Positions 10,830 through 36,352 of a stretch of DNA of 41,890 bases are shown here, one piece after another. The notes beneath the pieces were generated by a model. It was not told the DNA's origin, did no database searches, and saw only the letters and a list, made by a program, of their open reading frames with translations. The stretch comes from a virus. The stretch spans positions 1 to 41,890 of IMG/VR virus record IMGVR_UViG_3300037517_002214; one strand, given 5' to 3'. How positions within the stretch are numbered: the first letter of the stretch is position 1; the number at the start of each line of letters is the position of its first letter. Both the position numbers and the translations under genes were made by a program.

Positions 10830-13800
10830 TTATCCTCTGATTTCCACGACGTCCTGACCGGCCTGTTCGTTGATGGCGTCGATGACGCCCTGTAGCAGTT
10901 CTGACTGCTTCTGAAGTTCGACGAGGTTGACGTCCTTGTTGGGATCGTCGCCGCGGAGAAGGCGGTTGAGTTCGCGATTCCCTTCCATCGTCTGGGCGTC
11001 AGCTACGTTGAGCGCCGCCCGCGACGGCCCCTGGAGCATCGCGTTCATCCGCTCCTCGCGGAATCCGGCGAGCATCGGGGCGACTTGCTGCAACTGCTGC
11101 TCGGCGAGGCGGTTGAGGGCGGCGTTGCGGCCGGCGACGTCGGCGACGAACCGCTGGCCTTGCAGTTCAACCGTGAACGCCTCGGTTATGTCCCTAGCGC
11201 TCTGCTCGACCTCTCGCCTTGCTCGCTGGACTGGCGTCATCGCGAGTTCGCGACCACGGTCGCCTGACGCCGCACGCTCCGCGCGGCGCGTCATATCGTC
11301 TCGCTGACGTCTGGCAGCCTGAACCTCGGGGTCGCGCTCCGCGTCTGCGTTGATGCTCTCCTGCAATCTCCTGCGTTCCTCGCGGGCAGCGGCACGCTCC
11401 TCGGCCGTGCCGCCGCGGGTGCCGTCGGCGCCAGTGTCGTTGGCTGGGGCAGACAGCATGGCGTCAATTTCACGAAGACGACGGAACCTTGGATCGCCGT
11501 TACGGATGGAGTCCTGCTCCATGCGCTCGATCGCAGACGCCCGGCGGTCCTCGAACTCCTGCTGCGCGCGGCGAGCGTTGCGGACGTCCTCTTCGGCTCG
11601 CGTCCGCTGGGCTGCCGTCTCTGGCGTCCCCCTGGCAACATCCTCTCGCCTAGCCTGCTCGGCCCGCTGCTCAAGCGTCGCGACGTCCTGGGCGACCGAC
11701 TCCGACAACCTCGCCAGTTCGGAGCCGAAAGTCTTTACGGCCGCGGCGGCGTCGCGGAGAGCGTTGATATGGGCCTTAATGGCGTTGACGTCATCGTTGA
11801 GCGCCCTGGCCTCTTCGACGCGGCCTGCCTGGGCGGCCTCGCCCGCGGCCTTCTGCAACTGGGCCAGTGACTCCGCGAACGCGGCAATCTCTTCCTCGAT
11901 CGCACTCGCACCAATGACACCCTCGAATGCCGAGGCGATGTCGGCCTGGGCGGCGTTCATGGCGTCCGCGATCCGCAGGGCTTCGCGGCTGATGCGGGCG
12001 GCGAGTTTGTCGGCTTCAATTTGCCTGACTTGGACTAGAAGCTGCTCTCGGATTTGCTGGAGTGGCTGGATGATGTCTCCAGTCGCACCGGACTGCCGGA
12101 GGGCATTGATACGTTCTTCGAGAACCCTGATCGCTTCGTCTGGAGACTGGCCGATGTTTTGCAGTCCGGCGATTCGAGCCTCGTTGCGTCGCTCCGTATC
12201 TCGCGCCAACTGGAACGCACCGCTGTTTCCGGCTGCGCGTGCTCCAGCAAAAGCGCGTTGGGTTTCGCCTCGGATTTCCGCCTCAAGGGCAGCAATTACT
12301 CGCTGCCTGACGTTGCCTGCGCCGTTGCGGTTGGCGTCTCTGACAGCCCGCTGCTCCTCCTGCCGCTGACGTTCTTGGGCGGCCTGGAGTTGCAGCCTCG
12401 CCCTAATTTGCTCGCCAGGAGTCGTTGCCGCGTTGAGTTCTCGCTCAAACCTTGCGACGTCTCCGCGAGCCGCAGCGACGCCAACATCGACGGCCTGGAT
12501 TCTTTGCTCGCGGGCCTGACGCTGCTGCTGCTGAATCTCCTCAACTTGACGCCGAATGGAGGCGTTTCGCTGCCCCTGCTGCGACAGGCCGGCGTCCTGG
12601 ACTGCTTCAGCAACCTTCTTATAGGACTCTGCCAGGGCGTCAACGACTCGCTTCTGGTCGGCGAGCGCAGCGTTCAACGCCTTCGTCTGGTCTTCAGACT
12701 TGCGGCCGTTGTTGTACCAGTTGATCAATGCTGCAACGAGTTGCGCGCCGATGGCGGCCGAGATGCCGGCAATGAGTCCGGTTGTCCCGCCGATAATGAA
12801 CCCAAGTTGCGAGATGTTGTTCCCGGCCGCGCGGATGCGCTGGTCAAGGCCGCCGGTAACGCTGAAGAAGTCTTCGACAGCGAAAGCAGCCTGCTGGATA
12901 GCAAGGCCAGCGCGGTCGCCGAAGCCTCGAGCCTGGTCGCCGGCCCGCCGGAAGTCCTCGGCGAATCGGCCAGGTCGCACGCCTTCCGCAGCCGCGGCGG
13001 TGCGGATTAACTCTTGCCTGGTGCGTGCAATATCCGCCGCGGCCTGCTCCGCGCTGTCTGCCGTTCCAGAGAATGCGCGGAATGCCGCCTGTCTGTAAGC
13101 CTCAAGGGCGGCGACGGCTGGGCCTCGCTGCTCGGCGGTCAGCCGAGAGAGTCTGTTCTGAACGAACTCGATCTGCGATCCGACGGAACGCAGTTGCCGC
13201 TCGTCGATGCCCAGCGACAGGCCGGCGACGCCCTCGCCACCGAAGTTTTGCAGAAACTGCTGGCCGATGCCTCGGCGGCTGTTGAGCGCAGCCTGGATGG
13301 CTTGCGTCTCCTGCTGAACTCGCCGCAGTTGGTCAGCCGTAAATCCGACGCCGGCGCGGCCGAGGTTTTGCCACCGAGTCGTGAGGTTGTCGACAACGGG
13401 GCCAAGCGATCCAGCCAAGTCAGGCAGTTCGCGGAGTTGATTGCGGACGGCTGTGATCTCGCCGCCGACTCGGTCAAGGAACGCCTGCTGCGGGTTGACG
13501 CGAGACGCTGCCCCCTGGTTTGACAACAGTTGCGAACCACTCTGGTCTACATTGAGGAACCTGGACGCTGCCTCGGCGCGGCGTTGGGCGTCGGCAAGCG
13601 CATCCGTGCGAATACGCGCGTCCTCAAGCAGTTGCAGATAGGCGCGGACGTCCGTCTGCTGGCCCTCGCTCGCTATGAGATTCGACTCACGTTGGTCGAC
13701 AACCAGGAAGCGGGACGCGGCCTCGGCCCGCCGCTGGGCGTCGGCCAACGCTTCCGTTCTGGCCCTGGCCTGCTCAAGAAGTTGGATGTATTCGCGAATG

Positions 13801-14903
13801 TCCTGCTGCTGGCCCTCATTCGCAATCAGGTTCGACTCCCGCTGGTCGACGTTGAGGAACCTGGACGCTGCCTCGGCCCGCCGCTGGGCATCAGTCAGCG
13901 CTTCCGTCCTTGCCCTCGCCTGCTCGAGCAGTTGGAGGTACGCGCGAATGTCCTGCTGTTGGCCCTCGTTCGCAATCAGGTTCGACTCGCGCTGGTCGAC
14001 GTTGAGGAACCTGGACGCTGCCTCGGCGCGTCGCTGGGCGTCGGCAGCGGCCTCTCGCTGGGCGTTCGCCGCCTGCTGCGACAGCGTGATCTCTCGCTCC
14101 AACTGGTCATTGACCAACCGCAGTGACGCGACCTGGCGGTTGTACGCGGCCTCGGCCGCCTGCGCGTCTCCATTTCGCGTGGCGCGGATGCGCTCGAGCG
14201 TGGAGAGGAGATTCGCCGCCTCCTGGGCCGCCTGCCGCTGCTGGCCGACGAGGGCCGCCACGCCGCTGCCTTGAATCTGCTCTGGCGACAGGGCCGCGGC
14301 CTGCTGCTGGAGCGCGGCGGCGCGGGACGTCTGCTGGAGGAAGCCAGGGCGCTGGAAGCGGAGTTCCTGGCCGGAGGCGAGGCCCGCGGTTGCCTGTCCC
14401 GCCTCGCGGAGGCGGCTCGCGGCCTGCGTGACGCGGTTGATCCTCGCTTCGAGGTTGGCAAAGTCGCGCTCGCTGACCCTGGCGCCGTTGCCGATGGAAG
14501 TGCGGAGTTGCTCGGCCGCCTTCTGCGCCGACTCGAGCGCCGGGGCGAAGTTCCGCTGCACCTGGGTCGACAGACCGGCGAAGTCCTTCGCGGCCTGCGA
14601 GACTGGCTTGGCGATCCGCTCGGCGGCCTCGGCGAACTGCCGGATCGCCTGCACTTCCTGCTGATTGACTAACTTGAGATTCTGGCCGACGCCGACCTTG
14701 AGCGCCCGCTGCAACTTTTGCAGCGGTGTCAGGATGTTGTCGAACTCACGACCCGCGCGGCTCGTGGCACCGGAGATCGTGCTCTGAATCTTCCGCGCGA
14801 ACTGCGTGACGTCCTTGGCGCCGGCGTTCAGTCCTCGCGACAGACCCTTGGAGTCTGCCGTGAGGATCGCCGAGATTTTGCCAAGGTAGCCGCGTCCAGC
14901 CAT
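10830..14903 (-). CDS. Tail tape measure protein
   Basis: 1357 residues, by far the longest gene, immediately after the tail chaperone frameshift pair, as in siphophages. The first about 600 residues and the C-terminal half are Gln/Arg/Ala/Glu-rich coiled coil, and a hydrophobic stretch about 690-725 (LGFIIGGTTGLIAGISAAIGAQLVAALI) is the usual tape measure membrane segment. Residues about 288-455 are near-perfect 50-residue repeats. Tape measure length sets tail length, so about 1350 residues imply a tail of roughly 200 nm at 0.15 nm per residue. No lytic or peptidase motif was recognised in it. Confidence 0.93.
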   Translation of the reverse strand: MAGRGYLGKISAILTADSKGLSRGLNAGAKDVTQFARKIQSTISGATSRAGREFDNILTPLQKLQRALKVGVGQNLKLVNQQEVQAIRQFAEAAERIAKPVSQAAKDFAGLSTQVQRNFAPALESAQKAAEQLRTSIGNGARVSERDFANLEARINRVTQAASRLREAGQATAGLASGQELRFQRPGFLQQTSRAAALQQQAAALSPEQIQGSGVAALVGQQRQAAQEAANLLSTLERIRATRNGDAQAAEAAYNRQVASLRLVNDQLEREITLSQQAANAQREAAADAQRRAEAASRFLNVDQRESNLIANEGQQQDIRAYLQLLEQARARTEALTDAQRRAEAASRFLNVDQRESNLIANEGQQQDIREYIQLLEQARARTEALADAQRRAEAASRFLVVDQRESNLIASEGQQTDVRAYLQLLEDARIRTDALADAQRRAEAASRFLNVDQSGSQLLSNQGAASRVNPQQAFLDRVGGEITAVRNQLRELPDLAGSLGPVVDNLTTRWQNLGRAGVGFTADQLRRVQQETQAIQAALNSRRGIGQQFLQNFGGEGVAGLSLGIDERQLRSVGSQIEFVQNRLSRLTAEQRGPAVAALEAYRQAAFRAFSGTADSAEQAAADIARTRQELIRTAAAAEGVRPGRFAEDFRRAGDQARGFGDRAGLAIQQAAFAVEDFFSVTGGLDQRIRAAGNNISQLGFIIGGTTGLIAGISAAIGAQLVAALINWYNNGRKSEDQTKALNAALADQKRVVDALAESYKKVAEAVQDAGLSQQGQRNASIRRQVEEIQQQQRQAREQRIQAVDVGVAAARGDVARFERELNAATTPGEQIRARLQLQAAQERQRQEEQRAVRDANRNGAGNVRQRVIAALEAEIRGETQRAFAGARAAGNSGAFQLARDTERRNEARIAGLQNIGQSPDEAIRVLEERINALRQSGATGDIIQPLQQIREQLLVQVRQIEADKLAARISREALRIADAMNAAQADIASAFEGVIGASAIEEEIAAFAESLAQLQKAAGEAAQAGRVEEARALNDDVNAIKAHINALRDAAAAVKTFGSELARLSESVAQDVATLEQRAEQARREDVARGTPETAAQRTRAEEDVRNARRAQQEFEDRRASAIERMEQDSIRNGDPRFRRLREIDAMLSAPANDTGADGTRGGTAEERAAAREERRRLQESINADAERDPEVQAARRQRDDMTRRAERAASGDRGRELAMTPVQRARREVEQSARDITEAFTVELQGQRFVADVAGRNAALNRLAEQQLQQVAPMLAGFREERMNAMLQGPSRAALNVADAQTMEGNRELNRLLRGDDPNKDVNLVELQKQSELLQGVIDAINEQAGQDVVEIRG
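13543..14042 (-). repeat. 150-bp in-frame tandem repeats inside the tape measure gene
   Basis: Three full copies (14042-13893, 13892-13743, 13742-13593) and a partial fourth (13592 to about 13543). Each encodes a 50-residue unit starting DAQRRAEAASRFL and including the segment DQRESNLIA and, in the full copies, YLQLLE-x-AR or a close variant. Copies differ by only a few residues. Unequal recombination between copies would change tail length in 50-residue steps. Confidence 0.9.
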
Positions 14904-28697: not shown

Positions 28698-28725
28698 TTG
28701 ACACGGCCCGCGTGAAGCGTATTCT
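28698..28725 (+). promoter_or_regulatory. Sigma70-type promoter for the plus-strand small-gene region
   Basis: TTGACA (28698-28703), 16-nt spacer, TATTCT (28720-28725). The -35 hexamer is perfect. An imperfect inverted repeat (CGGCCC.GCGTGAAG ... CTTCATGCG..GGGCCG, 28704-28741) straddles the -10, a candidate operator. The first gene starts 54 nt beyond the -10. Confidence 0.7.
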
Positions 28726-29457: not shown

Positions 29458-30327
29458 ATGAAGACTATCGACACTGCGACCATTAACAAGTCCGTCCGCT
29501 CTATCCTTTCTGACAACACGAAACTCCGAAAACTGCCCAACGGGCAACGGGTGATTAACGCTGGCGTTACGCTGGCACCGTCGAAGCGTTCGGGCATCGT
29601 CAACGTCTGCCCACATGCGACGGCGGCGTGTATTCTGGTATGCGTTCTCTGGTTCGCGGGTCGCACCGTAACGCGAACGGTGCGGGAGGCCGCCACGAAG
29701 CGTACGCGCCTCTGGTTCTACGATCCTGCGACGTTCTACGCTCGTTTGGCGCGTGAACTTGCGGCGCTCGCCCGCAAGGCGGCGCGGGATGATGTTCGCG
29801 GATTCTGCCGAACCAACGTAGCAAGCGACGTTGATCATCCGCACGAAGTCTACACGGCCCACCCTGCGATCACGTTCTACAACTATACGAAGAACGAAGA
29901 CCACGCCGCAGCGTACGGGCGTGGTGAGTTGCCCGCGAACTACCACGTTTCCTATTCCGTTTCAGAGCGCACCACGTTTGAAACGGCCCGCGCCTTGAAT
30001 GCCGCTGGTGTCAATCTGGTGGTGGTGTTTAACAGCCACTACTTCGGGCCGCTTCACCGCTTCGGCATTGTTCCAGCCAGCGTTCGTTTCGTTTCGCGCG
30101 CCACGGGCGAGACGTTCACGGTCGACACGGTCGACGGTGATATTCACGATCTGAGAACGCCAGAGTTTGACGGGCGCGGTGTGGTGGTGGCGTTGCGGGC
30201 GAAGAGCGGCGCGAAGCTGCGGGCGCGGGCCGTTGAACTGGGGTTTATCAAGCGTTTCGCCGCTGGGGCGAAATGGTTCGTTGATGAGTACGTTCGCGCG
30301 GGTGAGTGTGTGGTCGAATTGAACTAA
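29458..30327 (+). CDS. gp88-like phage protein
   Basis: 289 residues, the largest plus-strand gene. Conserved elements: N-terminal small polar part, then C51-x6-C58-x3-C62 (CPHATAACILVC), REAATKRTRLWF, and (V/A)-S-D-V-D-H-P with AITFYNYTKNEDHAAAYGRG and VVFNSHYFGPLHRFG. The cysteine block and flanking order resemble the phage gp88/GP88-type family (CPxATxxCxxxC); function in that family is unknown. Loss of the usual CYA ending is visible. It is followed directly by a strong hairpin and the 35-bp repeat array. Confidence 0.7.
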   Translation: MKTIDTATINKSVRSILSDNTKLRKLPNGQRVINAGVTLAPSKRSGIVNVCPHATAACILVCVLWFAGRTVTRTVREAATKRTRLWFYDPATFYARLARELAALARKAARDDVRGFCRTNVASDVDHPHEVYTAHPAITFYNYTKNEDHAAAYGRGELPANYHVSYSVSERTTFETARALNAAGVNLVVVFNSHYFGPLHRFGIVPASVRFVSRATGETFTVDTVDGDIHDLRTPEFDGRGVVVALRAKSGAKLRARAVELGFIKRFAAGAKWFVDEYVRAGECVVELN

Positions 30328-30406: not shown

Positions 30407-30733
30407 AACACCACGCCCGCACCACGGGCCGACAGCATCGACCACCACGCCCGCACCAGCGGGCCGACAGCATCGACCACCACGCCCGCACCAGCGGGCC
30501 GACAGCATCGACCACCACGCCCGCACCAGCGGGCCGACAGCATCGACCACCACGCCCGCACCAGCGGGCCGACAGCATCGACCACCACGCCAGCACCAGC
30601 GGGCCGACAGCATCGACCACCACGCCCGCACCAGCGGGCCGACAGCATCGACCACCACGCCAGCACCAGCGGGCCGACAGCATCGACCACCACGCCCGCA
30701 CCAGCGGGCCGACAGCATCGACCACCACGCCCG
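30407..30733 (+). repeat. Array of 35-bp tandem repeats with internal hairpin
   Basis: Eight full units of exactly 35 bp (30441-30720), one leading degenerate 34-bp unit (30407-30440) and a 13-nt truncated end. Unit: ACCACCACGC CCGCACCAGC GGGCCGACAG CATCG (spaces for reading). Each holds GCCCGC-ACCA-GCGGGC, a perfect 6-bp hairpin with tetraloop. Units 5 and 7 differ only by C to A at position 11 of the unit. Because 35 is not a multiple of 3 the array is open in several frames on both strands by composition alone, so it is treated as non-coding. Spacers are identical, so it is not a CRISPR array; it resembles iterons, a partition/origin site or a structured leader. Confidence 0.9.
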
Positions 30734-30934
30734 ACCGTAGAAACCCCGACCGTAGAAACGGGCCGCCCCCCGAACATGGAAACCCCGAACGTGGAAACCC
30801 CGACCGCCTGGCCCGATCATGGAAACGAGCCGCAGCTGCGGCCCGGTGCGTGGAAACCCGTATCCTTCGAGGATGCCCCCGAGCGTGGAAACTGGGGGTA
30901 TCTAAGGTCGGCCGCCGGGCTGATCGGGCTTTCT

Positions 30935-30972
30935 GGGGCATTCTGTGACTGCCATTTTTGGCAAAATGCCCC
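30935..30972 (+). other. Compound hairpin in the non-coding block
   Basis: GGGGCATT (30935-30942) pairs with AATGCCCC (30965-30972); inside, TGCCA-TTTT-TGGCA (30950-30963) forms a second stem. The outer stem has a 7-nt one-sided bulge. It would be stable in RNA of either strand and lies about 40 nt before the next gene. Confidence 0.6.
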
Positions 30973-31014
30973 CCAACGTGGAAACGAGCACCCCCAACGT
31001 AGGAACGAGAACCA

Positions 31015-31269
31015 ATGAAACGAAAACGAACGAAAGCAGAACTGGAGCGGCTCGCCGCTGACTTTGAAGACCGCATGGCATGGCTTGAGACGGCATGGGG
31101 GTGCCGAACGGAATACGAGGTCGATCTGGCGACCGGCCGCGTCTGGCTGAAGGTCACGATGCCAGCCAGCCCGACCGCGCTCGTGGTGCGGTGCGCCATC
31201 GACGGCATCACCCTCCCCGGCACAAGCCCGGCTGGCGCGGATTCTCACGATCCCAACTGTCCTGGCTGA
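31015..31269 (+). CDS. Small protein, unknown
   Basis: 84 residues. It begins MKRKRTKAELERLAADFEDRM, a basic/helical start, then Cys 29-x-T-E-Y-E-V and ends HDPNCPG. The ATG is preceded by motif CGTAGGAAC and GAGAACCA. No family recognised. The next gene lies 136 nt on, after another motif copy and a candidate promoter. Confidence 0.65.
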   Translation: MKRKRTKAELERLAADFEDRMAWLETAWGCRTEYEVDLATGRVWLKVTMPASPTALVVRCAIDGITLPGTSPAGADSHDPNCPG

Positions 31270-31316
31270 CTCCGAACGTGGAAACGAGCGGCGAAAACGA
31301 AAAACAGATTTTAGGC

Positions 31317-31344
31317 TTGACTCAACTTGTGCCGATGCTAGGAT
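31317..31344 (+). promoter_or_regulatory. Candidate sigma70-type promoter
   Basis: TTGACT (31317-31322), 16-nt spacer, TAGGAT (31339-31344), 62 nt before ATG 31406, in the gap between two small genes. Spacing matches the 28698 promoter; the -10 is poor. Confidence 0.45.
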
Positions 31345-31405
31345 TGTCACGAACGAGGGCGACGGTCGCCCCGATCATGGAAACCCAAGAACGAGGAAAC
31401 GAGCG

Positions 31406-31627
31406 ATGACAACGGAAACGAATCTCCAGTGGCAGGTGGTGCGCGGCTTCGGCGATATCGTCGACTCCCCGAACGAGTGCTTCGACCTTGAAGTGGTCGC
31501 GACGTTCAAGAGCGAAGCCGACGCGCAGGTTTTCGCTGATCTCTACTACGAAACGAACATCGTGGACATTCAAGAGCGGATGCCCGGCATGTGGAAAGCG
31601 TTTTTCGTGACCGTGAAGAAGTCCTGA
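31406..31627 (+). CDS. Small protein, unknown
   Basis: 73 residues, acidic, with FKSEADAQVFADLYY. The leader CGAGGAAACGAGCG lies directly before the ATG, and a second CATGGAAAC copy lies 16 nt further upstream. The A-x-V-F-A-D-L helix pattern is like that in other small phage proteins of the region (ATREEAEQFL). Function unknown. Confidence 0.7.
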   Translation: MTTETNLQWQVVRGFGDIVDSPNECFDLEVVATFKSEADAQVFADLYYETNIVDIQERMPGMWKAFFVTVKKS

Positions 31628-31660
31628 ACCAACCCCAACCCCCGAACGAGGAAACGAGCG

Positions 31661-31963
31661 ATGCGACAGATGATGCAGCAAAACCCAGCAGACAAGCAGC
31701 GAGCAAAAGAGGTCAGCGATATTTTCTGCGCTCTTGAGGAGTGCATGTGCTACTTGAGCAACCGATGGGCAGACGAGCATGAATATGAAGACATTGCTGA
31801 CTACAAGAGCAGGATCGAAGCAGAACTGTCCGAACTGAAAGTCGATGGTTTCGCGATCACCAAGATGACGCGGCGGCCGTTTGGTTTTGTCGCGTCATAC
31901 AAAGGCGCAGAGTACAAGTTCAAGGCAGGCGCGCGAGCCTACGAATACACGCGCACGAAGTGA
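31661..31963 (+). CDS. Small protein, unknown
   Basis: 100 residues. Helical N-terminus (QQNPADKQRAKEVSDIFCALEECMCYL in two stretches), then beta-like C-terminus (GFVASYKGAEYKFKAGARAYEYTRTK). The leader CCCGAACGAGGAAACGAGCG precedes ATG 31661. Its stop is 38 nt before the next gene's ATG. No family recognised. Confidence 0.7.
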   Translation: MRQMMQQNPADKQRAKEVSDIFCALEECMCYLSNRWADEHEYEDIADYKSRIEAELSELKVDGFAITKMTRRPFGFVASYKGAEYKFKAGARAYEYTRTK

Positions 31964-32001
31964 CAGTTTTATTCACCAACCCCCGAACGAGGAAACGAGC
32001 G

Positions 32002-32301
32002 ATGCGCGACGTTACATGGTATGCTGTCTACGAAAGCAACGATTCCAAGGGCTACGATGCGGACTACGTTCCCTGCGTCAGTCGCGATGCCGCGATGCAG
32101 GCGGCGGAAGGGTACCTGGCGTTCGCCAGCGGCGAACGCGATGCGGTCTACATCGTGGCAGTGCCGCATTCGTTGTGCGTGACGGACAACGAGGAGTGGT
32201 CGCTCTGGGAGTGCCTGGGAGAGATCGAAGCCGATGGTGCGTCGAACTTCGTGCATCTGCATCGCGGCCCGCGATACGGTGAGGATGCAGCTGCGGTCTG
32301 A
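32002..32301 (+). CDS. Small protein, unknown
   Basis: 99 residues from ATG 32002, chosen because the leader CGAGGAAACGAGCG ends exactly there. A start upstream in the same frame would run through the motif. The product is acidic with YLAFASGERDAVYIVAVPHSL, which looks like a small beta-alpha domain. No known motif. It is followed by 110 nt of gap that contains two motif copies. Confidence 0.7.
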   Translation: MRDVTWYAVYESNDSKGYDADYVPCVSRDAAMQAAEGYLAFASGERDAVYIVAVPHSLCVTDNEEWSLWECLGEIEADGASNFVHLHRGPRYGEDAAAV

Positions 32302-32411
32302 CGCAGGCCCGGAGCGGATGCCATAGCCTGCATACCGATAGAACTACGGGGCGGCGCGTTGCCGCCCCGGATCGTGGAAACGATTGGAAGCCCCGTAGGA
32401 GGAAACGAGCG

Positions 32412-32690
32412 ATGGGCGCGGAGTTTGACTGCCGACGATTCGATGATGCCGACAAGGCGACCGTGCAGGCGAAGTGGGAGGCGGCCGTCGACAGCGACAG
32501 TCGCGAGAACGGCCGTTCATACAGCGGCACAATCGCGATGCTGCCTGGCCCGATCTCGTGGCGGCTGGAGCAGTTCGCCACCCGTGAGGAAGCCGAACAG
32601 TTCCTCGTGGAGAAGCACCAAAAGTGGGAACCACCGATGGCGGTACGCTGCGGCGAAGGGTGGATTGTCGGAGGGTGGTGCTCTTCGTAG
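32412..32690 (+). CDS. Small protein, unknown
   Basis: 92 residues. The leader AGGAGGAAACGAGCG precedes ATG 32412. It contains QFATREEAEQFLVEKHQKW, resembling the short aromatic-rich input-strand/helix proteins seen at 31406. No catalytic motif. Belongs to the motif-controlled gene set. Confidence 0.7.
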   Translation: MGAEFDCRRFDDADKATVQAKWEAAVDSDSRENGRSYSGTIAMLPGPISWRLEQFATREEAEQFLVEKHQKWEPPMAVRCGEGWIVGGWCSS

Positions 32691-32763
32691 CAAGGCATTC
32701 GATGGCAGGGGCCGCGTCGGCCCCGAACGTGGAAACGATACCCCCGAGTGGAGGAACGCGACG

Positions 32764-33117
32764 ATGGGATATGTGAGCAACGCGATGATCGAAATGGCCG
32801 AGGCCGGCGCCGTCATGGCCGAGGTGACCGAGGTGCAGGCGTGGCGGGCTGCCGGCCACACCGTGCCGCTGGTGTGGGTCGAGGTCGACACCTACCGGGG
32901 CCGGCGGAATATGCCTGCCATGACCCTGGAGACGGCCGAGCGGCTCGCCGGCTGCCTGGATGACGAGGAGGCCCGCGAGACGCTGCGGCAGGCCGTGGCC
33001 GATGCACGCAGCTACCTCGCCACGGTCGGCCGGGTGTGCGCCCAGTGCGGATGCCACGGGCAGCGGCACTGGTTCGTGAACACCGGCAGCGAGACGCTGT
33101 GTGTGGAGTGCGGGTGA
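32764..33117 (+). CDS. Small zinc-ribbon protein
   Basis: 117 residues from ATG 32764, placed by the ribosome site (GGAGGAACGCGACG) despite an open frame that extends further upstream. The C-terminal VCAQCGCHG...HWFVNTG...LCVECG has two C-x2-C pairs (about 92-117), a probable zinc ribbon. The N-terminal part is helical (SNAMIEMAEAGAVMAEVTEVQAW in two stretches) and includes RAAGHTVPLVWVEVDTYRG. Function unknown. Confidence 0.72.
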   Translation: MGYVSNAMIEMAEAGAVMAEVTEVQAWRAAGHTVPLVWVEVDTYRGRRNMPAMTLETAERLAGCLDDEEARETLRQAVADARSYLATVGRVCAQCGCHGQRHWFVNTGSETLCVECG

Positions 33118-33214
33118 TGCCGACACCGCCCCGGCTCGTTGCCTGGGCGGTTCGATTAGTGGATGATTTCACCAGACCCCCGAGTGGGGGAACGAGAAGC
33201 AAAAGGGAACAACG

Positions 33215-33811
33215 ATGGACTGCATTATCTGCACGATGCCTGAGTGCTGCGGCGAAAAGGACTGCCCGGTCGGCTGGCATCTCGCCCACTACTGGCGATA
33301 CGACGACGGCACCTACAGCGTCTGCGATTCGGACGGGAATCACGACGACTGCGACGAGAGCGATATCCCGACCGACTCCGAGTATAGCGCCGCCTGGCTC
33401 GACTACTCGCGGCACGTTGCCGATACCGGCTGCGACCCGCTGGGGGAGTTCCACGGCATCCCCCGTGCGACGAAACGGAAGGAGCGGTATACCGCAGCCT
33501 TCCGCCCTTCGATCCTGGGCGGCAAGCTTGTCGCCGTCCGGCGCGGCGGCAAGGTCATGCCGCTGCGTGACCTCCCGCAGCGAGTGATCGACTACCTCGA
33601 CTGCGAGCGGATGCCTGGCGAGGCCGGCAACCTCCGGTTTCGCGGCGGGTGGCAGGAGTTGACAAGCCTGGACTGCGTGAAACTCTACCGCGGCACGGCC
33701 CGCGTCACCTTTACGCTTGACCATGAGGAGCCGAGGCCCGCGGCGGCCGTCGAGGCCGACCTGCGACGAGCGGCTCGACGCCACCTGCGAGAAAAGAAGG
33801 CGAAGGCGTGA
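33215..33811 (+). CDS. Cysteine-rich small protein, unknown
   Basis: 198 residues. The N-terminus has clustered cysteines (MDCIICTMPECCGEKDC, 1-17) and an acidic aspartate/serine-rich part (DGNHDDCDESD), which suggests metal binding. The middle has FRPSILGGKLVAVRRGGKVMPLRD and the C-terminus is basic. A weaker leader (AAAAGGGAACAACG) precedes the ATG. No known family. Confidence 0.7.
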   Translation: MDCIICTMPECCGEKDCPVGWHLAHYWRYDDGTYSVCDSDGNHDDCDESDIPTDSEYSAAWLDYSRHVADTGCDPLGEFHGIPRATKRKERYTAAFRPSILGGKLVAVRRGGKVMPLRDLPQRVIDYLDCERMPGEAGNLRFRGGWQELTSLDCVKLYRGTARVTFTLDHEEPRPAAAVEADLRRAARRHLREKKAKA

Positions 33812-33921
33812 GCGACCCGCCCTGGTCCCCCGGCCGGCGAAACGCTGGTACGGGGGCGACGGGCGGGCCGCGGTGGCCCGGAACGTGGAAACCCATAACC
33901 CTAGAGACGAGGAGAGCGACG

Positions 33922-34170
33922 ATGACCGACCGATTCAAGTTCCTGGCCGTGCGCCGTGCCGGCCGCGTGGCGATTGTGCGTGTGCTGCATAGCGGCGAGG
34001 TGGCCGGCTACGATCCCGTGGCCGACCGCGAGCAGCGGCAGCGGCACTTCAAGATTCACCGCGGGCCTGCGGCATACGATGCTGCCTTCGGCGACTCGCG
34101 GCAGTATGGCAGCCTGGAGGATGCCGTGGCCGACGCGGCTGTGGCTGGCCGGTGGGTCGAGACTGCCTGA
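33922..34170 (+). CDS. Small basic protein, unknown
   Basis: 82 residues from ATG 33922, favoured by GACGAGGAGAGCGACG directly before it; an alternative GTG at 33808 overlapping the previous stop (GTGA) would add 38 residues, mostly translated from the motif-bearing leader. The core RFKFLAVRRAGRVAIVRVLHSGEVAG is beta-like. No family recognised. Confidence 0.68.
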   Translation: MTDRFKFLAVRRAGRVAIVRVLHSGEVAGYDPVADREQRQRHFKIHRGPAAYDAAFGDSRQYGSLEDAVADAAVAGRWVETA

Positions 34171-34242
34171 CCCCCTGACCGTGGAAACCAGAGTTCGATT
34201 TCACCCTGCCGCCCCGTGCGGCGAAACCAGAGGAGAGCGACG

Positions 34243-34608
34243 ATGATCTACTGGATTCTGGCCGATATCGCCGGAGAGCACGGCCGCCGGCACGATGGCA
34301 ACTGGGAGCCGTTGTCGAAGCGTGAGCCGGCGAGCGACGAGGTGGAGCGGTTCCACCGGCACGCCGACGCCGTGGCGAAGGCCCGGAAGCTCAAGGCGAA
34401 GGATTGCCACTGCAAGCCGCTGAAGCAGGAAGGCGTCGTGTTCTACTGGCATCTGCCGGAGGCGGCGGCCGGCGAGAGCGACCTCGCCGAGGTCGTCGAG
34501 TTTCGGTCGGCGAGGCAGGCGGCGGCGTGGCGGAAGCGGGCCGAGGCCGAGGGCTGCGAGGTGATCGAGTGCCTGGGGACGGCGAAACGAAAGGCGGCGA
34601 AGAAATGA
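34243..34608 (+). CDS. Small protein, unknown
   Basis: 121 residues from ATG 34243 with leader GAGGAGAGCGACG. Helical and basic toward the end (AWRKRAEAEGCEVIECLGTAKRKAAKK). H-C-x-C in KDCHCKPLK is the only metal-like site. It overlaps the next gene by 4 nt (ATGA), so they are coupled. Confidence 0.7.
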   Translation: MIYWILADIAGEHGRRHDGNWEPLSKREPASDEVERFHRHADAVAKARKLKAKDCHCKPLKQEGVVFYWHLPEAAAGESDLAEVVEFRSARQAAAWRKRAEAEGCEVIECLGTAKRKAAKK

Positions 34609-34790
34609 GCAACCGCATCAGCCCATACGAAGCCGGCTGGCTCACCTTCCTCGTCGAGCAGCGGCTGGCGACGGCCTCCGAGGCCCGCGAGGCACAGAAT
34701 CGCGTGGCACAGGATGCCGTCCGCGAATTGGAGGAGCGCCGGCGGCAGCGCCGGCTCGAGCGCAGGCGGAAAAAACGCGAGGAGGACTAG
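34605..34790 (+). CDS. Short basic helical protein
   Basis: 61 residues from ATG 34605 (ATGA overlap with the previous stop). The C-terminal half is a highly charged helix (RELEERRRQRRLERRRKKREED), typical of a coiled-coil or nucleic-acid-binding tail. The N-terminal part reads SPYEAGWLTFLVEQRL. No family. The size fits an anti-host or regulator peptide but this is a guess. Confidence 0.68.
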   Translation: MSNRISPYEAGWLTFLVEQRLATASEAREAQNRVAQDAVRELEERRRQRRLERRRKKREED

Positions 34791-34825
34791 GCTACTGGCC
34801 GATAGTCAGCGTAGGCTACTGGCCG
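34788..34825 (+). repeat. 14-bp direct repeat TAGGCTACTGGCCG
   Basis: The string TAGGCTACTGGCCG occurs at 34788-34801 and 34812-34825, 24 bp apart, just after the stop of the 61-residue gene and just before another motif copy (34837). A local duplication or a binding site. Confidence 0.7.
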
Positions 34826-34860
34826 TGACAGTGGAGCGTAGAAACCAGAGGAGCAGAGAC

Positions 34861-35163
34861 ATGAGGATCGAAGGGTTCAAGGACGGGGATCGGGCATGGG
34901 CGGCAGCGGTGTACGTTCGGGACGGTGGCGGCCGGGAGCCGGCGGCGGCGACGGTCTACGTCCACGAGGTGGCGATCGTGATGGCGGCCGGCGGCATCAT
35001 CCAGGAGGACGGCCGCGAGCCGCGCGTCAGCGGCGTCGGCGAGACGTTCCACCGGACGCAGCAGCAGGCCCGCGAGTGGGCGGCGGCTGAACTCCGCAGG
35101 AGCGCGGCCAACCTGTACCGGCAGGCCGAGGAAGTGGCCGAGCCGCGTGTGGTGACCGTATGA
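34861..35163 (+). CDS. Small protein, unknown
   Basis: 100 residues from ATG 34861, preceded by AGAAACCAGAGGAGCAGAGAC, which contains the SD GAGGAG and a motif copy. It has a beta-like N-terminus (DGDRAWAAAVYVRDGG), VHEVAIVMAAGGIIQEDG and a helical C-terminus. It overlaps the next gene by 4 nt (ATGA). No family recognised. Confidence 0.7.
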   Translation: MRIEGFKDGDRAWAAAVYVRDGGGREPAAATVYVHEVAIVMAAGGIIQEDGREPRVSGVGETFHRTQQQAREWAAAELRRSAANLYRQAEEVAEPRVVTV

Positions 35164-35432
35164 TCGGCCTCGTCCGAGATACCTGGCGGGCCGTGCTCGT
35201 CGTTGTCGTCGCCGTGCTGCTCCGCGGAGTCTTCGCGGAGCGGCCGGCGCCGCCGCCGGCACCCGTGGCCCCTGCGTGGCAACCGGCGGCCGTTCAGTGG
35301 TCGCCCCCGCCCGTGGCAACCGGAGCGTGGCAAACCATGCCCGCCCCGGCCGTGGAAACCCAAGGCCCGATTCGCCGCGTGGCCCGAGAACTCGTAGACT
35401 TGTCCGAAGCCGTGATAGGAGTGGTGCGATGA
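35160..35432 (+). CDS. Short secreted or membrane-anchored proline-rich protein
   Basis: 90 residues. N-terminal hydrophobic segment about 8-24 (TWRAVLVVVVAVLLRGVF) serves as signal or anchor, followed by a Pro/Ala-rich linker (PAPPPAPVAPAW...PPPVATG) and a charged amphipathic C-terminus (VARELVDLSEAVIGVV). Proline-rich linkers after a membrane helix are common in spanin-like or envelope-spanning proteins; function is not settled. The CGTGGAAAC at 35351 lies in its coding frame. Confidence 0.7.
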   Translation: MIGLVRDTWRAVLVVVVAVLLRGVFAERPAPPPAPVAPAWQPAAVQWSPPPVATGAWQTMPAPAVETQGPIRRVARELVDLSEAVIGVVR

Positions 35433-35713
35433 ACGTCGAAGACCTGATGACACCGGAGCAGGCCGCCGAGGCTATCGGGGCGACGAGCCGGCGGGCCGTG
35501 TACCGGGCGATCGCTCGAGCCAAGGCCGCCGGCTCCGACGTCACCGTGGCCCCGTTCGGCAAGATGCTCGTGCGGAAAGACATGGTCGCCGTGCTCAAGG
35601 GCTTCTACTTCCCCTACTACTCAGAGGCGCACCAGGCCAACGTGAAGAAGTGGGGCGCGGCCGGCGGGGCGGCGGCGGGCGTCACCAAGCGAAAGCGGAA
35701 GCAGGGCGGCTAG
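35429..35713 (+). CDS. HTH DNA-binding-like protein
   Basis: 94 residues from ATG 35429 (ATGA overlap with the previous stop). The N-terminal about 60 residues (LMTPEQAAEAIGATSRRAVYRAIARAKAAG ... LVRKDMVAVLKGFYF) look like a winged or MerR/excisionase-type helix-turn-helix: sensor-like start, recognition helix TSRRAVYRAI, then a short wing. The C-terminus is Gly/Ala/Lys-rich. It could bind DNA of this region, for example the repeats or motifs. Its stop overlaps that of the convergent HNH gene. Confidence 0.72.
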   Translation: MNVEDLMTPEQAAEAIGATSRRAVYRAIARAKAAGSDVTVAPFGKMLVRKDMVAVLKGFYFPYYSEAHQANVKKWGAAGGAAAGVTKRKRKQGG

Positions 35714-36024
35714 AGGCTCTCGCGTGCCGTCTTACGGGAGTGGCACCGCCGGCAGAGCAACTGCAACCCTGACAGCGGCGTGGCCTCTGCGGCCTCGCTG
35801 GCTGGCTTGGCGACGATGTGGTCGATCTGGGCATCTCCGGCCCGGTGGCAGACGGCACCACACTCGCGGCAGCAGCCGCCGTCGCGGGCGATGACAGCCT
35901 TCCGTACCCGCTGCCATGCGGCCGAGCCGTACCCCCGTTCGTGAGAACTGGCGCGGGTCTGCGCGGCCTCCGTCCGGCGAAACGAGCCGAATCGCGGTCT
36001 AAAGGTGGGGATTCTGCGCGGCAC
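35710..36024 (-). CDS. HNH endonuclease
   Basis: 104 residues, start GTG 36024. It begins PRRIPTFRPRFGSF, the typical short N-terminus of phage HNH proteins (pattern PRR-PTFRP). Zinc cysteines C52/C55 (CCRECG) and C91/C94 (CRRCHS) bracket the active D68-H69 (IDHIVAKP); the usual asparagine before LQLLC is a glycine (G87). It overlaps the membrane gene by 26 nt. Role may be in packaging or DNA cleavage; a second HNH sits by the terminase. Confidence 0.85.
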   Translation of the reverse strand: MPRRIPTFRPRFGSFRRTEAAQTRASSHERGYGSAAWQRVRKAVIARDGGCCRECGAVCHRAGDAQIDHIVAKPASEAAEATPLSGLQLLCRRCHSRKTARESL

Positions 36025-36352
36025 TCGACCACCCGACCAGGAGAACGCGATGGCTCTCGCGGGCGAACCACCACTCGATCACCAGTTTGATGATCACCTG
36101 CGCGAGCATCGACAGGAGGAACATGGCGACGACGCTGCCGTACTTCTTTCGCAGACGCACCGAGACGCGGGCCTTGACCACCTCTTCCAGGCGATCCGTC
36201 GGACAGCCGGCAGGCCACTCCTCGACGATCATCTCCACGATGCGGTCGCGGAGCGGCCCGTGCATGGCAAGCCGCATCCCGCCTCGCTTGGCGACGAACG
36301 CCTTCAGCGGACGATAGACCGCGTCGCTGGCGGGCATGTGCCGCTCGTGCAT
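35999..36352 (-). CDS. Small membrane protein
   Basis: 117 residues from ATG 36352; the ribosome site AAAGGA lies 7 nt before, so the longer reading is not needed. One hydrophobic segment about 80-100 (SVVAMFLLSMLAQVIIKLVIEWWF) is a membrane helix; the N-terminus is basic/polar. Such single-span proteins in this cluster could be a holin, an antiholin or an anchored regulator. It overlaps the lipoprotein gene by 49 nt, an unusually long overlap. Confidence 0.68.
   Translation of the reverse strand: MHERHMPASDAVYRPLKAFVAKRGGMRLAMHGPLRDRIVEMIVEEWPAGCPTDRLEEVVKARVSVRLRKKYGSVVAMFLLSMLAQVIIKLVIEWWFARESHRVLLVGWSSAAQNPHL

Follow-up and report, generated by a model that had tools for sequence, protein, structure and literature searches.

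The repeat and its setting in the window

The window examined here comprises the 41,890 nucleotides of IMG/VR virus record IMGVR_UViG_3300037517_002214 (positions 1 to 41,890), and the element in question is a short polar repeat that accompanies a block of small plus-strand genes, chiefly between 30736 and 35359. The block is ordered as a promoter (P1), one to five motif-free genes, a largely non-coding motif array, a second promoter (P2) and the motif-tagged genes; both promoters are predicted from their consensus rather than mapped by transcript starts. A preliminary description of this DNA had reported a family of 9-mers, and its counts proved exact on recount: 10 copies of CGTGGAAAC and three each of CATGGAAAC, CGTAGAAAC and CGAGGAAAC lie between 30736 and 35359, all on the plus strand. 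Further plus-strand variants in this interval are CGTGGCAAC (two copies) and CGTAGGAAC (one, at 30998). One-mismatch matches in the whole window number 26, as compared to 11.4 +/- 3.6 in dinucleotide shuffles, none of which reached 26.

The repeat is thus real, but its unit is larger than first described. A weight matrix iterated over 14 related contigs together with the window converged on a bipartite consensus of 16 bp rather than 9 bp, CCCCGA(A/C)CGTGGAAAC. The positions most strongly kept are CC.G in the left half and AAAC in the right half, and the best-conserved parts, CCCG and AAC, are spaced by about one helical turn. At the centre, CGTGG, the middle two bases are variable (CGGCG, CGTAG, CGACG, CGAGG), and the bases 3' of the 16-mer show a mild preference for (G/C)A(G). 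With weaker members counted (32398, 32749, 33185, 33468, 33835, 34219, 35326 and three at 35940-36038), the window holds 27 copies at a position weight matrix (PWM) score >13.

A mostly non-coding array of eight copies (30736-30977) precedes the first robust gene, and three further copies are located within the coding sequence (CDS) 35160-35432. The earlier statement that nearly all copies occupy gaps before small genes therefore applies to about half to two thirds of them, but not to these two groups. On the 3' side of P2, distances between copy and start codon are bimodal: they measure 5-12 nt for copies that include the Shine-Dalgarno (SD) sequence and 15-35 nt for a class in which CGTGGAAAC predominates; most copies in gaps leading to a plus-strand gene end >12 nt before the start. 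In the SD-type copies, which adjoin the start codon, an A replaces the T. The role of CGAGGAAACGAGCGATG as SD, already proposed in the preliminary description, was borne out at 31392, 31647 and 31988. Many genes after P2 are preceded by a doublet, i.e. a non-SD copy followed 15-25 nt on by an SD copy. It should be noted that genes were called by a simple codon-usage caller, and individual starts may be wrong.

Conservation and promoter geometry in related phages

An exact 15-mer scan of IMG/VR retrieved 45 contigs, ten of which contain 2-11 exact copies. The motif-bearing contigs belong to one syntenic group of tailed phages with common terminase, capsid and tail genes, and these genes are located on the strand opposite to the motif block. 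In a collection of isolate phages no DNA match was found, and all terminase relatives showed <60% identity; the group is apparently undescribed. One member, G008, looks complete on account of its 127-bp terminal repeats. Here the motif block is the principal plus-strand operon, and another plus-strand pair includes a tyrosine integrase (PF00589).

Related records hold 18-41 copies each. In 33 non-redundant related contigs, sense and antisense copies were counted at 603 versus 2 for PWM scores >16 and at 754 versus 15 for scores >12, and individual block-containing records repeat the one-strand pattern (whole-record counts of 20:0, 17:0 and 0:17, for example). A copy is present within 100 nt upstream of 231 of the 302 block genes versus 2 of 906 genes elsewhere, and throughout the related phages the motif is restricted to the homologous plus-strand small-gene block. 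Relatives seemingly without the motif lack the block, since many contigs end close to the array; an alternative motif in three of them (G014, G015 and G018) was rejected, as the whole block and its neighbouring genes are absent there. The motif is thus not two-stranded, not frequent elsewhere and kept between genes in relatives, the three points on which the preliminary description had made its significance depend.

In blocks of 70-90% identity, the copies change less rapidly than the sequence around them. The motif reached an identity of 0.86 in 70-80% identical blocks, where intergenic flanks scored 0.77 and third codon positions 0.63; the corresponding values in 80-90% identical blocks were 0.92, 0.82 and 0.73. 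The motif figure is somewhat biased, as copies were located in only one sequence of each pair. This constraint bears on the earlier idea of repeatedly duplicated leader cassettes, which finds partial agreement in the homology blocks shared between phages. Their left ends fall <=5 bp from a motif in 30 of 102 cases (10% expected), and some blocks span exactly from motif start to motif end. As homology blocks often begin at the motif, the copies act as exchange sites as well. That the motif is a recombination linker without any regulatory role, spreading since short identity allows small-gene shuffling, is nevertheless improbable: for right ends the figure is only 15%, gene borders are expected as breakpoints anyway, and neither the constraint above flanks nor the strict orientation, the absence from other gene gaps or the geometry around P2 would be explained.

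This geometry is conserved across phages. Promoters comparable to P1 head the block in G001-G004, G008, G012 and G013, and P2 follows the consensus TTGAC(C/T)-N16-TANNNT with CCGATGC preceding the -10 box; the P2 region can be aligned over ~100 bp between phages. P2-type promoters in the blocks number 38 on the plus strand versus 4 on the minus strand. Among these 38, a copy occurs at +50 to +80 in 30 cases (5.1 expected) and at -42 to -38 in eight (0.95 expected). In seven contigs, exactly 40 bp separate the -35 box from the nearest copy 5' of P2, and in two contigs 41 bp; the first copy on the 3' side is found at +53 in seven contigs and between +53 and +75 in most. In the general layout of the block, copies follow the -35 box at ~53 and ~74 bp. 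A second conserved box (approximately TTCTCACAATCCCAACTGTCC, about 31240-31262) is located directly 5' of the -40 motif copy, and a similar box precedes P2 in L170, G008, L183, L082 and G009.

A copy 40 bp before the -35 box has its centre at about -75 relative to the predicted start of P2, a distance at which class I activators work, and the array occupies mostly non-coding DNA next to the 35-bp tandem repeats. The array and the -40 copy could recruit an activator or represent origin iterons, the gap copies being secondary in either case. We assign a low probability to this explanation, as neither origins nor activators need a copy in most gene gaps, and the copies show no 10.5-bp phasing. 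The GAAC-like core, single strand and location 5' of genes would further be compatible with the motif itself being a promoter for an extracytoplasmic function (ECF)-type sigma factor or a phage RNA polymerase. Copies only 15 bp apart, however, leave no room for a second promoter box, a conserved downstream element is missing, and the block has separate sigma-70-like promoters with their own consensus, making this assignment very improbable indeed.

Table 1. Features along the plus-strand block of the window
Feature	Positions	Strand	Remarks
P1, sigma-70-like promoter TTGACA-N16-TATTCT	28698-28725	+	Consensus prediction; heads the plus-strand block
Three genes without motif, 3' of P1	28779-30327	+	Last gene, 29458-30327, encodes a GP88-family protein (PF17338)
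35-bp tandem array, 9.3 copies	30409-30733		Between GP88 gene and motif array
Motif array	30729-30985	+	Cores at 30736, 30751, 30775, 30790, 30818, 30849, 30884, 30977
Motif copy, core 40 bp 5' of P2 -35 box	31270-31285	+	
P2, TTGACT-N16-TAGGAT, CCGATGC preceding -10	31317-31344	+	Consensus prediction
Leader hairpin GGGCGA(CGG)TCGCCC	31357-31371	+	3' arm overlaps C-run of next motif
First doublet, non-SD core 31376 and SD core 31392	31369-31400	+	Before ATG 31406
SD copy	31640-31655	+	Before ATG 31661
SD copy	31981-31996	+	Before ATG 32002
Doublet, cores 32373 and 32398	32366-32406	+	Before ATG 32412
Doublet, cores 32728 and 32749	32721-32757	+	Before gene at 32764; hairpin GGGGCC(GCGTC)GGCCCC 5' of doublet
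Cores 33835 (CGGCGAAAC) and 33884	33828-33892	+	Before ATG 33922; GC-rich spacer with hairpin potential
Cores 34180 and 34219	34173-34227	+	Before ATG 34243
CGTAGAAAC copy	34830-34845	+	Before ATG 34861
Three copies inside CDS 35160-35432	35305-35359	+	5' of the helix-turn-helix (HTH) gene 35429-35713; present too in G001 and G002
94-aa HTH-like protein	35429-35713	+	Last plus-strand gene of the block; weak candidate reader

Two further repeats were observed in the window. Each of the nine 35-bp tandem repeats at 30409-30733 contains the palindrome CCCGCACCAGCGGG, and the sequence of the close relative G016 terminates within the same repeat. At 13538-14045, a 150-bp repeat (3.4 copies) is found in a minus-strand open reading frame of 1357 aa, likely the tape-measure gene.

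Reading of the motif in DNA or RNA

The motif is tentatively attributed to a stoperator-like polar DNA site for one regulator of the early small-gene operon, an assignment that we consider just short of probable. Computation shows the site itself, with one orientation, restriction to one operon and sequence constraint, as well as the geometry around the predicted P2 and the phage integrase; a reading in duplex DNA, a silencing effect and a phage-encoded reader are inferred. In detail, one sequence-specific regulator would recognise the polar 16-bp site in duplex DNA and switch the whole early block on or off in a temperate phage. Bound to the P2-flanking and gene-gap copies, it could block both initiation and read-through from P1, as do the stoperators of Cluster A mycobacteriophages, and the A-for-T copies beside start codons would double as SD. 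Among the roles offered in the preliminary description, binding sites for a phage regulator hold up well.

The leading candidate reader is a protein of ~180 aa with two tandem winged-helix repeats, divergent from the integrase in the phages holding that region. Its model has a pLDDT (predicted local distance difference test) of 84.8, and the fold matches Pukovnik Xis (4j2n, prob 1.00) and TraN (prob 0.85); none reaches E 0.001, and no Cluster A repressor was among the matches listed. With its two domains, analogous to those of the TipsytheTRex repressor (PMC9283540), such a protein would fit a motif whose two conserved parts are separated by one helical turn. The protein (L148:1645-2304 and orthologues) is apparently an internally duplicated excisionase. 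Neither its gene nor that of the integrase is present in the window because the contig is incomplete. The 94-aa HTH protein (35429-35713), previously suggested for pull-down, gained no specific support as binder; it has orthologues in 11 of the 15 genomes with the motif, and no feature marks it out. The 229-aa double-HTH protein of G008 was rejected as reader since its orthologues are shorter, and attempts to identify the reader by protein-motif co-divergence were uninformative as the motif hardly varies.

Several observations weigh against the stoperator-like assignment. No motif copy overlaps the -35/-10 hexamers of P2, so that simple occlusion of this promoter is excluded. The consensus is near-identical in 14 phages whose terminases are 56-98% identical to that of the window, which differs from the divergence of stoperators with their cognate repressors (PMC6550527). 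In 90-98% identical blocks motif and flanks score alike (0.94 vs 0.94), i.e. without extra constraint. The winged-helix candidate resembles phage excisionases and may equally be merely an excisionase; its divergence does not track that of the motif (r 0.13). Moreover, the near-perfect sense orientation, the SD overlap, the GC hairpins 5' of promoter-proximal copies and a phage-encoded CsrA all suit a role at the RNA level.

Such a role could take the form of a leader code, in which a dimeric RNA-binding protein, perhaps the phage CsrA, bridges non-SD and SD copies and controls translation or stability while the array serves as a CsrB-like sponge RNA. We regard this as possible, though somewhat unlikely. 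A CsrA homologue was identified in G008 (L147:13882-14070, PF02599, E 8e-18) and CsrA-like small proteins in 13 further phages; every group phage holding the relevant region encodes CsrA. The doublet spacing of 15-55 nt is inside the 10-63 nt over which CsrA bridges its sites (PMC7652899). GGA is found in 93% of the SDs in the block versus 64% elsewhere, and GAGGA in 45% versus 9%. In the window, all array copies are located 3' of P1, and no plus-strand terminator is predicted between the array and the P1 genes. Conversely, CsrA requires GGA, which was 100% conserved in SELEX (systematic evolution of ligands by exponential enrichment; PMC7652899) but is absent in the common non-SD variants CGGCGAAAC, CGTAGAAAC and CGACGAAAC, and the parts kept best, CCC.G and AAC, are irrelevant to CsrA.

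The hairpins speak to both sides. A stem of >=4 pairs precedes 25 of 27 promoter-proximal copies, and stems of >=6 pairs were found for 15 of 27 (4.6 expected), with the 3' arm usually taking in the C-run of the motif. A stem is likewise present at 50 of 170 non-SD gene-gap copies (21.7 expected). Array and SD copies show no stem excess, although the array keeps the C-run as well; stems are common only 5' of promoter-proximal copies, and the leader hairpin was rejected as an obligatory part of the motif. When sites were picked by the right half alone and the left half scored thereafter, CC.G was kept in 85% of hairpin-bearing copies, as compared to 92% of those lacking a hairpin, 76% of array copies and 5% of sites outside the block. 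Conservation of the full 16-mer regardless of predicted RNA fold favours a reading in duplex DNA: to a single-stranded RNA reader, the C-run would be accessible in copies without a hairpin but base-paired in those with one, a difference that would not affect a duplex DNA reader. Together with the fixed positions around P2, this leads us to prefer the DNA level. Within the motif, pairwise covariation is negligible and RNA structure was therefore rejected; among known RNA families none matched.

The spacing of copies follows an odd parity. Among the distances between neighbouring copies (14-60 bp) in 30 phage blocks, 239 are odd and 39 even, or 103 versus 26 after merging similar spacers, and the doublets beside a start codon are spaced 98 odd to 5 even; copy-to-start-codon distances have no such parity. 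Odd-looped hairpins with arms co-varying in length could, together with shared ancestry, account for part of the odd spacing in the long class, but not obviously in the short class.

Both levels might also be combined. One 16-base word would then act as a polar DNA site and, with one base changed, as ribosome-binding site of the same genes, the phage CsrA and the non-coding array adding a post-transcriptional layer. We consider this combination distinctly unlikely, and we know of no phage regulon with a two-level code of this kind.

Host range and comparison with known systems

As they encode a PF00589 integrase, the phages are probably temperate. Motif-bearing phage contigs were found in three metagenome-assembled genomes (MAGs; G019, G425 and G415) of a single Planctomycetota family, the phylum being assigned because a phylum search centred on G019 and one centred on a Pirellulaceae MAG gave the same genomes. 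A host range within one Planctomycetota family is credible on these grounds: a single co-binning could err, but three cases agree. In 392 genomes drawn across Planctomycetota, the motif occurs in <=2 exact copies each, i.e. at chance level, and a host regulon was rejected. A CRISPR (clustered regularly interspaced short palindromic repeats) repeat in the Acidobacteria MAG JAIVJM010000033.1 (L162) ends in the same 13-mer, CGAACGTGGAAAC. Mimicry of CRISPR repeats was rejected, as the 13-mer is shared with this array only and judged to be chance; no array was found in 60 host-family genomes.

Most known cases of dispersed polar repeats governing a phage operon come from mycobacteriophages. The stoperators among them are understood, whereas start-associated sequences (SAS) and their extended form (ESAS), reported in 2011, have no known function. 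That Planctomycetota phages possess a second system, unrelated in sequence, suggests that operon-wide tagging arises repeatedly. As promoter-flanking, gap and SD copies occur together, DNA-level and RNA-level ideas for SAS-like elements become testable with short synthetic sequences. The motif also provides a metagenome sequence tag for the phage group and ties it to a host family.

With CsrA-controlled leaders and CsrB-type sponge RNAs, the block shares two sites per leader, one of them on the SD, a multi-copy non-coding stretch and a phage CsrA. The difference lies in GGA, which is not the conserved part here and is lacking in many non-SD copies.

The SAS and ESAS of Cluster K mycobacteriophages are directional repeats that accompany non-structural small genes only and carry the SD; about half of the SAS have an upstream inverted repeat, and the host contains chance matches only (PMC3203893). 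All these traits recur in the present motif: directionality, association with small non-structural genes, SD-carrying copies, upstream inverted repeats and a host without the motif beyond chance. However, SAS reads GGGATAGGAGCCC and is positioned 3-7 bp before start codons, whereas the sequence differs here, and most copies lie >=13 nt upstream, are without SD function or belong to the array and the surroundings of the promoter. The parallel to SAS "in logic, not in sequence" drawn in the preliminary description hence fits the SD copies, while the non-SD, array and P2-flanking copies are nearer to stoperators.

Stoperators of Cluster A mycobacteriophages (L5, TipsytheTRex) are bound by a reader with two DNA-binding domains (PMC9283540), and their motifs vary between immunity groups (PMC6550527). 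Both systems combine an asymmetric site in >20 copies oriented with transcription (here 18-41 per record, 603:2) with a placement at an early promoter and in short intergenic gaps, and both belong to temperate phages. The sequences are unrelated, the unit is 16 bp here as compared to a 13-bp stoperator consensus, and the present motif is confined to one operon, with doublets, a tandem array and a second copy class that is the SD. In summary, sequences and position rules place the motif in neither stoperators nor SAS/ESAS; by analogy, its nearest relatives in logic are the stoperators and, for the SD copies, SAS/ESAS.

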